33,021 bases of DNA from an uncultured Selenomonadaceae bacterium (GTDB lineage Bacteria > Bacillota > Negativicutes > Selenomonadales > Selenomonadaceae): contig CAJOCT010000011.1 of NCBI GenBank assembly GCA_905236725.1, positions 1 through 33,021 on the forward strand. Reading direction: 5' to 3'. Position 1 is the stretch's first letter; each line of letters starts with the position of its first letter. Below the pieces are notes generated by a model. The model was not told the DNA's origin and ran no database searches. It saw nothing but the letters and a program-made list of their open reading frames with translations. Shown here in pieces: positions 1-2,002 of this stretch. The translations under genes and the position numbers were made by a program.

Positions 1-917
1 ATTTTCCGCAGTCACCATAATGTTACGCAAAAGATCAGCCGCGTCCGCTCCAAATCTCCACTCGCCCAAAGGTTTCCAATTATACTTTTTGCAAAGCCAA
101 GAAATAGATTCTTCGGTGTAAATATGAGTGTGAGTAGCGTAAAGAGTACGCGGGTAAACTTCAGGGATAAGGGTATCTATGATACTTGCAAGCGAAAACA
201 TCGGAACGGAAAAATAAATCCAACGAATATTTGAATTTCTCTGTATTGCGTCGAAGACTTCAACAACATTTATTATATGTTCAAAGGCGTAAATGCAGGT
301 AAGTACGTTTGCATCAGATTTTTCAATGTAATCCAAAATTTTTTCTGAAGGACAATGTATCAGCAGCCCTTCAGGCAATATGTTTTGTGCGTACCTTACT
401 TGATGGACATCTACTTCTACTCCAAGCGCATTTAATCCCTCGTTATGCATCGCGAAGGCAAAATGACCTGTTCCCGCGCCAATATCCAAAAATTTCAGAG
501 CGGAGTAATTTATACCCCCCCCCCCATACTGTTGGTAAGTACTTCTTTCATAAATTTTACTTTGGGGAGATAAATCGTCTCTACTCTCTGAAGGTAACGC
601 GCTTTTTCGGAATCCTCGTAAGTGTTTCCAAAACATCCGTCATCATTTTCGTAAAGCATGCGGCAATACTCTTCCGTATCCTCATGGCTGCCGTTGATAT
701 GGCCGCAGGTGTCGCAACAAAAATACGTTACGCCATGAGAATGAAACTGCCAACGCTTTTCTGTGCCGTGACAAATTTTGCAAAATTTGCGTTCGGGCTG
801 TTCTTTGTAAATTTGATAAAGTCTGTCATTGTGCTTTACCAAATTTTCATTGTCAGCCGTCAAATTTTCTTTGAAAGTCCACATATTGGCATAAGACTTA
901 CTAAATTTGTGAATCAT
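1..917 (-). pseudogene. Zinc-ribbon SAM-dependent methyltransferase, frameshifted at a G11 tract (possibly phase-variable); 3' end outside the window
   Basis: Read on the minus strand, the first frame (917 to 510) starts with an ATG preceded by AGGAGG (929-934) and encodes a Cys-rich N-terminal domain (CKICHG, then CCDTCG) typical of zinc-binding modules on class I methyltransferases. It stops just after a run of 11 G. The next frame, from about 516 to 1, is open to the window edge and holds the SAM-binding motif LDIGAGTGHFAF and a later FEHIINVVEVFD segment. One extra G (or two fewer) in the tract would join the frames into a protein of more than 300 residues. The gene lies 22 bp downstream of rsmE on the same strand, so it is probably cotranscribed. 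The substrate is unknown; similar enzymes modify sugars in surface-glycan loci. A sequencing error in the homopolymer cannot be excluded. Confidence 0.8.
515..525 (-). repeat. Homopolymer tract of 11 C (11 G on the coding strand) inside the methyltransferase gene
   Basis: Eleven consecutive C residues on the plus strand sit exactly where the reading frame of the methyltransferase breaks. Tracts of this kind are classic slipped-strand sites. A length of 12 or 9 would restore the full frame; 11 gives termination four codons after the ATG at 527-525. Confidence 0.9.
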
Positions 918-939
918 TTAATAAATAACCTCCTTTAAA

Positions 940-1806
940 CTAACTCAGTTCGTATTGAACAACTGCAAGCGTGGAAATTGCCGCCGTGTCAGTTTTCAAA
1001 ATTCTTTTGCCGAGCGAAACACTCACGCCGCCGACAGATTTTATTTCGCGGACTTCTTTTTCACTGAAACCGCCTTCCGGTCCGATTAAAATAATTATAT
1101 CTTTGTCGCAATCGGAAATTTTATATTTGCGCAAGATATTTTGAATTTTTTCTTCAATTTCTTTTTCGTAACAGAAAAGTAACAACGCGCCTTTGCAGTC
1201 GAAAATTTTTTCGCCTTTTTTATTTTCGATAAAATGCCCCAAAGTCGGCTCAATATTTTTCAGCCAATCGCGAAGTTCCAGAATTTCTCCAAACTCCGGC
1301 AAAGTGTCGCGGGCGCATTGTTCGGCGGCTTCTTTGGCAACACGAGCCCAACGCTCAAGTTTAGTTTTTGCGCGAAAATTTCCCGGTCTTGCGATTGTTC
1401 TGTCGGAAATCAGTGGCGCAATTTTGTCAACGCCGAGTTCAGTCGCCTTTTCGACCACGATGTCAAATTTATTTTGCTTGGGAAGACACTCGGCAAGCGT
1501 AATTTTTTTCTTGTAAATTTTTTCGCCGTTTGAATGAGTTTCCTCAGTAGCGCTGTTTTTGCCGACGCGATGAATAATTTTAATCGTGTCCGTTGTTGAA
1601 ACTTTCTTAATTTCGCTCACGCATTTGGCGAAAATTTTTTCTTTGTCAAAGTCGATGAGTTCGATCGTCGCAGTGTTTCCGGCTTTGTCAACCGCAATAA
1701 TTTTGTCGCCTTTTTTCGCCCTCAAAGAATACGCCAGATGATGAGCGTCTCTGCCCGTGATGATTATGTTTTCGGAAATCTCGTCCTCCAAAAAAATTCT
1801 CTTCAT
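940..1806 (-). CDS. rsmE: 16S rRNA m3U1498 methyltransferase RsmE
   Basis: SPOUT-family enzyme that methylates N3 of U1498 in 16S rRNA, using SAM in a C-terminal trefoil knot. The knot signatures are clear: LIGPEGGFSEKE and SLGKRILKTDTA close to the C-terminus, and the central FDIVVEKATELGVDKIAPL segment. The chosen ATG (1806-1804) has AAAGGAGG just upstream; an ATG 27 bases further upstream has no such site. At 288 residues it is longer than the usual 240-250. The extra length lies mainly in an insertion around residues 85-105 (a Lys- and Glu-rich stretch after KNSATEE) and in a longer segment before the knot. It is the first gene of a minus-strand pair with the frameshifted methyltransferase. 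Confidence 0.93.
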   Translation of the reverse strand: MKRIFLEDEISENIIITGRDAHHLAYSLRAKKGDKIIAVDKAGNTATIELIDFDKEKIFAKCVSEIKKVSTTDTIKIIHRVGKNSATEETHSNGEKIYKKKITLAECLPKQNKFDIVVEKATELGVDKIAPLISDRTIARPGNFRAKTKLERWARVAKEAAEQCARDTLPEFGEILELRDWLKNIEPTLGHFIENKKGEKIFDCKGALLLFCYEKEIEEKIQNILRKYKISDCDKDIIILIGPEGGFSEKEVREIKSVGGVSVSLGKRILKTDTAAISTLAVVQYELS

Positions 1807-2002
1807 GACAACCTCCTTTGCGCCCGTTTCCATACAAATAAAAAAGATAGTTCGCCAAAAAATCTGATAATTCCTTCAATTTTAATTGCCCGAAACCAAA
1901 AATATTCTGCAGTGATTCGCTTTAAAGAGTGCAAAGATTTGCCGCTAAAAAATTTTTTTGCGGTTTAAAATTTCGACAAATTTTTTTGCGGAGGCGAGAC
2001 AA

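Follow-up and report, generated by a model that had tools for sequence, protein, structure and literature searches.

How should a methyltransferase gene be understood that appears in two different reading frames in an assembled genome? This question is raised by the left end of the window, the 33,021-bp stretch of DNA analyzed here, which is the entire contig C11 of an uncultured rumen Selenomonadaceae genome (210 contigs, 2.65 Mb, 97% complete). The contig end truncates the gene, whose N half and C half lie in different frames that meet at an uninterrupted run of 11 Gs. Judging from sequence features, this gene very probably encodes a surface-glycan methyltransferase whose frame would be switched by the gain or loss of G in the 11-base tract through slipped-strand mispairing.

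A methyltransferase gene split at a G11 tract

The plus strand carries 11 Cs at positions 515..525, corresponding to 11 Gs on the coding minus strand. The N half (510..917, minus strand) is an open frame of 135 aa that begins with an ATG at position 917, contains two CxxC pairs and ends at a stop codon just 3' of the tract. An AGGAGG ribosome-binding site can be read from the sequence 11 bases 5' of this ATG (929..934, minus strand). The C half (1..636, minus strand) is open to the contig edge, its homologous part covering approximately positions 4-504, and exhibits a Methyltransf_23 domain (PF13489; E 3.4e-12, 46.8 bits against a Pfam cut-off of 27). The tract is situated in the linker between the zinc ribbon-like N half and SAM motif I. 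The assignment as a zinc-ribbon/SAM methyltransferase, made in a preliminary description of this DNA, stood for the methyltransferase part; the N half returned no match in Pfam and NCBIfam searches, and its zinc-ribbon label is one that we presume from the CxxC motif. A search of PDB sequences yielded weak methyltransferase matches only (E about 0.005).

The genomes G202 and G211, both from a different genus of the family, encode an intact homolog, an open frame of 378 aa that contains no G run. This homolog matches two places in the genome carrying the split gene, with no others at E up to 1: residues 26-157 correspond to window positions 525-914 (N half, 42%) and residues 163-329 to positions 4-504 (C half, 44%). 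The five unmatched residues coincide exactly with the G11 tract, where the sequence of the homolog differs, and both CxxC pairs are conserved in the alignment. As the homolog spans both halves and its alignment breaks at the tract, the two halves belong to one class I SAM methyltransferase gene whose reading frame is lost at G11, a split that is seen directly. The preliminary description had further stated that the tract is the only break, that one more G would restore the frame and that neither half shows other damage. The frame arithmetic is correct, and the tract is the sole visible cause of the frame break. Both halves are open up to the tract, so that freedom from other lesions applies to the visible part of about 300 codons; homolog residues 330-378 (approximately 49) would fall beyond the contig end and have no counterpart in contig C11 or in the rest of the genome.

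The improbability of the tract was evident from a direct count, as it is the only run of at least eight Gs in the window. The four 8-G matches observed compare with a mean of 0.17 in 100 dinucleotide shuffles, none of which reached four. In the proposed mechanism, slipped-strand mispairing during replication would add a G to the tract or remove one. At the assembled length, the ribosome would leave the frame within the tract and stop right after it, leaving the enzyme off; because of this immediate stop, no catalytic domain would be made. Other cells of the population would carry other tract lengths and produce the full enzyme. The sugar methylated in this on state would belong to a surface polysaccharide or to a flagellar glycan. 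We infer that such switching is reversible and that its selective reason may be the avoidance of phage, protist or host immunity.

The glycan substrate is likewise inferred, in this case from the neighbors of a homolog in another genus. In G202, the intact gene is surrounded by genes for NeuB (nonulosonic acid synthase), a cytidylyltransferase/PseG-like fusion, a TylF-type methyltransferase, DUF4910, MBOAT and AlgX-like acyltransfer proteins and a WbmS-like deacetylase; the cluster also includes a PglK-like ABC transporter and a GDP-fucose synthase. This arrangement resembles a nonulosonic-acid/fucose surface-glycan cluster and supports the surface-glycan role suggested for the window gene in the preliminary description. 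The exact sugars are not claimed, since scores in the cluster stay below the NCBIfam equivalog cut-offs (NeuB_NnaB 304.8 vs. 399.7; GDP-fucose synthase 481.7 vs. 500). The methyltransferases of this nonulosonic-acid cluster in G202 and G211 share the Methyltransf_23 domain and the cysteine pairs of the N half with the window gene, but are open throughout and carry no G tract. Consequently, the tract arose in the present lineage or in its donor.

The gene itself is rare. It is found in 3 of 189 family genomes, including its own, and in 1 of 66 genomes of its genus, namely this one metagenome-assembled genome (MAG). No copy besides its own was detected among 398 genomes of the phylum at E 1e-20, and no independent copies were found in viral contigs or phage records. 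On the visible side, the gene is flanked by housekeeping genes; its upstream neighbor on the same strand (940..1833, minus strand), which we take to be rsmE, coding for the 16S rRNA m3U1498 methyltransferase, ends 22 bases away. Relatives whose RsmE is 65-74% identical are MAGs labeled Selenomonadaceae or Selenomonadales, most of them from goat, sheep, deer and buffalo rumens. The RsmE loci of 17 named relatives show no G run of at least eight. Among the eight of these with downstream genes listed, the methyltransferase is absent after rsmE and different genes follow, indicating that this site is variable. The relatives thus yielded, at the rsmE locus, no ortholog of the tract with which its length might be compared.

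This rarity, together with an assembled state that encodes no whole enzyme, would suit a horizontally acquired gene in the course of decay, with a fixed frame break and the G run being no more than the place of the first disabling indel. We consider this unlikely, as no second lesion has accumulated in the visible codons, the catalytic domain is conserved and a run of 11 Gs is improbable without maintenance.

Further G tracts in the same genome

The preliminary description had advised a search for other G tracts in neighboring glycan genes. Across the genome, tracts were found in a DUF4422 gene, a GT61 gene and a polysaccharide pyruvyl transferase gene among others. In total, the genome contains 15 runs of at least nine Gs, with lengths of 9-13, whereas about two are expected from an independent-base model. 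These sibling tracts are directly observed, as is the occurrence of both frame states among them: five tracts are flanked by at least 60 open codons on both sides, four of them out of frame and one in frame. Besides the window gene, tracts out of frame were identified in a Citrate_ly_lig-type gene, next to which lies a tandem paralog that is intact (611 aa) and has no tract, in a gene for a DUF7657/DUF7654 membrane protein and in the DUF4422 gene. The GT61 gene carries its tract near the gene start. The tract genes on contigs C35 and C61 were examined by hand, the automatic choice having taken a frame on the opposite strand.

A gene combining Methyltransf_23 with the polysaccharide pyruvyl transferase on contig C69 exhibits a G10 tract in frame, just before SAM motif I (L073, 4027-4036). 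It encodes the second zinc ribbon-like methyltransferase of the genome, with a tract position like that of the window gene. A relationship of the two genes as recent paralogs was considered and rejected, the intact homolog matching the C69 protein at 26% over 85 residues. Given this limited similarity, the shared tract position is probably convergent or due to chance. No match to the C69 gene was found in the other 65 genomes of the genus at E 1e-40.

A second group of tracts lies in putative promoter spacers, three of which passed a strict promoter test. On contig C61 (15213-15222; L071, 5514-5523), a G10 tract separates TTGACA from TATACT in a flagellin promoter-like spacer, and the gene directly 3' of it, which runs off the contig, codes for a flagellin (Flagellin_N, 8.6e-30). 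This promoter is predicted to be phase-variable. Another spacer-type tract is located upstream of a gene for a TPR protein. The third occurs on contig C3 (47511-47519; L062, 4012-4020) in the arrangement TTGACT-N11-G9-TATAAT; as no gene of at least 70 aa starts within 250 bases downstream, the question arises as to whether its target is a small RNA or a small protein. Three further tracts upstream of genes for RTX-repeat proteins show a -10-like hexamer by eye and failed the strict test. The last three, at or near contig edges, are without gene assignment. The window switch would accordingly belong to a genomic set in which glycan enzymes carry tracts of the frame type, and flagellin and other genes tracts of the spacer type.

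A gene in decay would sit poorly with the fourteen further tracts of at least nine Gs, and with the C69 methyltransferase, whose in-frame tract occupies a comparable place in the linker. The same set of tracts bears on a different explanation, in which the frame break is a homopolymer sequencing or assembly error, the true length being in frame and the gene simply on. Eleven-base homopolymers are error-prone, and the consensus of a MAG gives one length only. Moreover, 6 of the 15 tracts are found no more than 600 bases from a contig end, a zone that makes up 9.5% of the genome (P 0.002, for a threshold picked after the data had been seen), indicating that assembly is troubled at tracts, and the G13 at the very edge of contig C15 could be a sequencing artefact. 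Nevertheless, an error seems quite improbable as the full account, and it would alter the assembled state, not the switch, because a tract of this kind is hypermutable regardless.

Poly-G tracts across the genus

An analysis of related genomes revealed that long G tracts are widespread in the genus. In a first sample, at least four 9-G matches (overlapping count) were present in 36 of 36 other genomes of the genus, whereas 14 of 23 class members outside it had any, mostly few, with top values of 20, 16, and 11. When tracts of at least 10 Gs were counted, 65 of 66 genomes of the genus contained at least one (median 6) and 23 of 66 at least ten, compared with 72 of 123 (median 1) and 4 of 123, respectively, in other genera of the family. 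The difference between the genus and other family members is pronounced (P about 6e-20, with the base composition of the outsiders uncontrolled). The four outsiders with at least ten tracts are G226 and the three members of g45, another genus of the family, all of which (G353, G354, G318) contain 10-17 tracts. The trait is therefore strong in the genus and not exclusive to it. In G226, 15 runs of at least 10 Gs are crowded on one strand within 1.1 kb (contig C9, 3589-4675), and this cluster is probably a sequencing artefact that inflates the count of the genome.

A detailed set of 124 tracts was assembled from the genome containing the window and from two further genomes, G003 (100% complete) and G006. 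G003 exhibits 88 tracts of at least nine Gs, with a mode of 12 and a longest run of 19, and G006 has 21, of which 16 are of the minimum length of 9. In the three genomes, 59 tracts are open on both sides, 19 of them in frame and 40 out of frame (1 of 5 in the window's genome, 14 of 45 in G003, 4 of 9 in G006), as judged by a mechanical criterion that possibly misassigned some frames on the opposite strand. About one third in frame is close to random phase, and such a near-random distribution is poorly explained by a systematic homopolymer error. The slipped-strand switch proposed in the preliminary description is thus favored by the break of the homolog alignment at the tract, the 15 tracts of the genome, the enrichment in the genus and the near-random phase.

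Of the 124 tracts, 19 lie between consensus -35 and -10 elements. The opposite strand yields a single such case among 124, and shuffling the flanks 300 times gave a mean of 1.1 and a maximum of 5. Scoring promoters more loosely (8 or more of 12) proved noisy and was dropped (38 of 124, shuffle mean 12), and a pattern limited to 9-10 Gs was too narrow and was excluded from the counts. Including the tract, the total spacers between -35 and -10 measure 14 to 22. The optimal spacer for sigma-70 is 17, and a range around this value is as expected if the spacing wanders. Of five pairs of paralogous tracts in G003 whose flanks are similar, four consist of tracts that differ in length. In this genome, a C precedes 67 of the 88 tracts, and many of them, including tracts in unrelated genes, share a similar surround (ctc-G12-ca) that is missing from most tracts of the window's genome; it may stem from a common element that seeded the tracts or from an effect of slippage at the tract boundaries.

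The diversity of lengths and the spacer tracts also bear on a third alternative, namely that the window tract is a recoding site at which, with the length of the DNA fixed, transcriptional or ribosomal slippage would yield some full-length enzyme. Polymerases can slip on long homopolymers. Slippage recoding, however, is described mostly for A/T runs or for heptamers with stimulators, tract lengths are many and varied, and recoding would be senseless for tracts in promoter spacers. Recoding is thus very improbable, and switching through changes in tract length remains the preferred reading.

Pfam tallies of the genes associated with the tracts cover 84 of the 88 G003 tracts and all 21 G006 tracts; for 8 of the 124 tracts, four each in the window's genome and in G003, there was no usable gene. 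The families in G003 and G006 comprise glycosyltransferases (GT2, GT8, GT11, DUF4422), WcbI, FkbM, type 23 methyltransferases, flagellins, TonB receptors and RTX repeats, which are usual clients of phase variation. The tract genes of G006 also include housekeeping families such as UvrA, ClpX-like proteins and transketolase, and some of the frames chosen there will be neighbors or chance. Type IIG restriction-methylation genes carry tracts in both genomes (MmeI domains; REase_MTase_IIG). Since poly-G occurs in such genes in two species, the genus may have phase-variable methylomes (phasevarions).

Relation to known phase-variable systems

The proposed mechanism, a well-known type, is that of classical simple-sequence-repeat phase variation, whose poly-G form has been described chiefly in mucosal pathogens. 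A PhasomeIt survey of Campylobacter phasomes gives 5-81 phase-variable genes per strain at a cut-off of seven Gs, with 18-39 in C. jejuni (PMC6321876). The poly-G runs of Campylobacter mostly measure 9-10 Gs; as in the genomes analyzed here, a genome contains many of them, located inside genes that include those for flagellar and capsular modification, with frame-type on/off states (PMC6321876). In contrast, the present genomes belong to a different phylum, and G003 has 88 tracts at the higher threshold of at least nine Gs. A second source describes two tracts of Neisseria meningitidis, a poly-G in frame in lgtG and a poly-G between the -35 and -10 elements of porA (PMC3639595). The window gene resembles lgtG as a glycan enzyme with a G tract in its reading frame, and the promoter-spacer tracts found among its siblings resemble porA (PMC3639595). 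Unlike these, the present case concerns a methyltransferase of a rumen bacterium, with both types of tract occurring together and switching predicted from sequence. Invertons, on which a paper exists, represent a mechanism different from poly-G slippage.

The single gene is of a known kind; the apparent novelty lies in the large poly-G phasome of uncultured rumen Selenomonadaceae. As judged from lists of papers and the beginnings of abstracts, no such tracts were found in the available literature on Selenomonas, Selenomonadaceae, Negativicutes, the rumen and gut Firmicutes, outside of which most subscription papers and all preprints lie. It is likely that this genus runs a poly-G phasome that rivals or exceeds that of Campylobacter in size and is undescribed in this gut lineage, with the window methyltransferase as one unit. 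Tens of frame-type and spacer tracts would make up this phasome, each switching its target independently of the others; the targets would be flagellin, RTX-repeat surface proteins, TonB receptors, glycan enzymes and type IIG restriction-methylation genes.

If such a set exists throughout a genus of commensal rumen Negativicutes, stochastic surface switching would be a general answer to life in the gut, with its phages, protist grazing and host antibodies, and not a virulence trait. The phasome also yields a prediction that is testable in any metagenome with reads. Glycan genes that are annotated as broken in such MAGs would then probably be switched, not lost.
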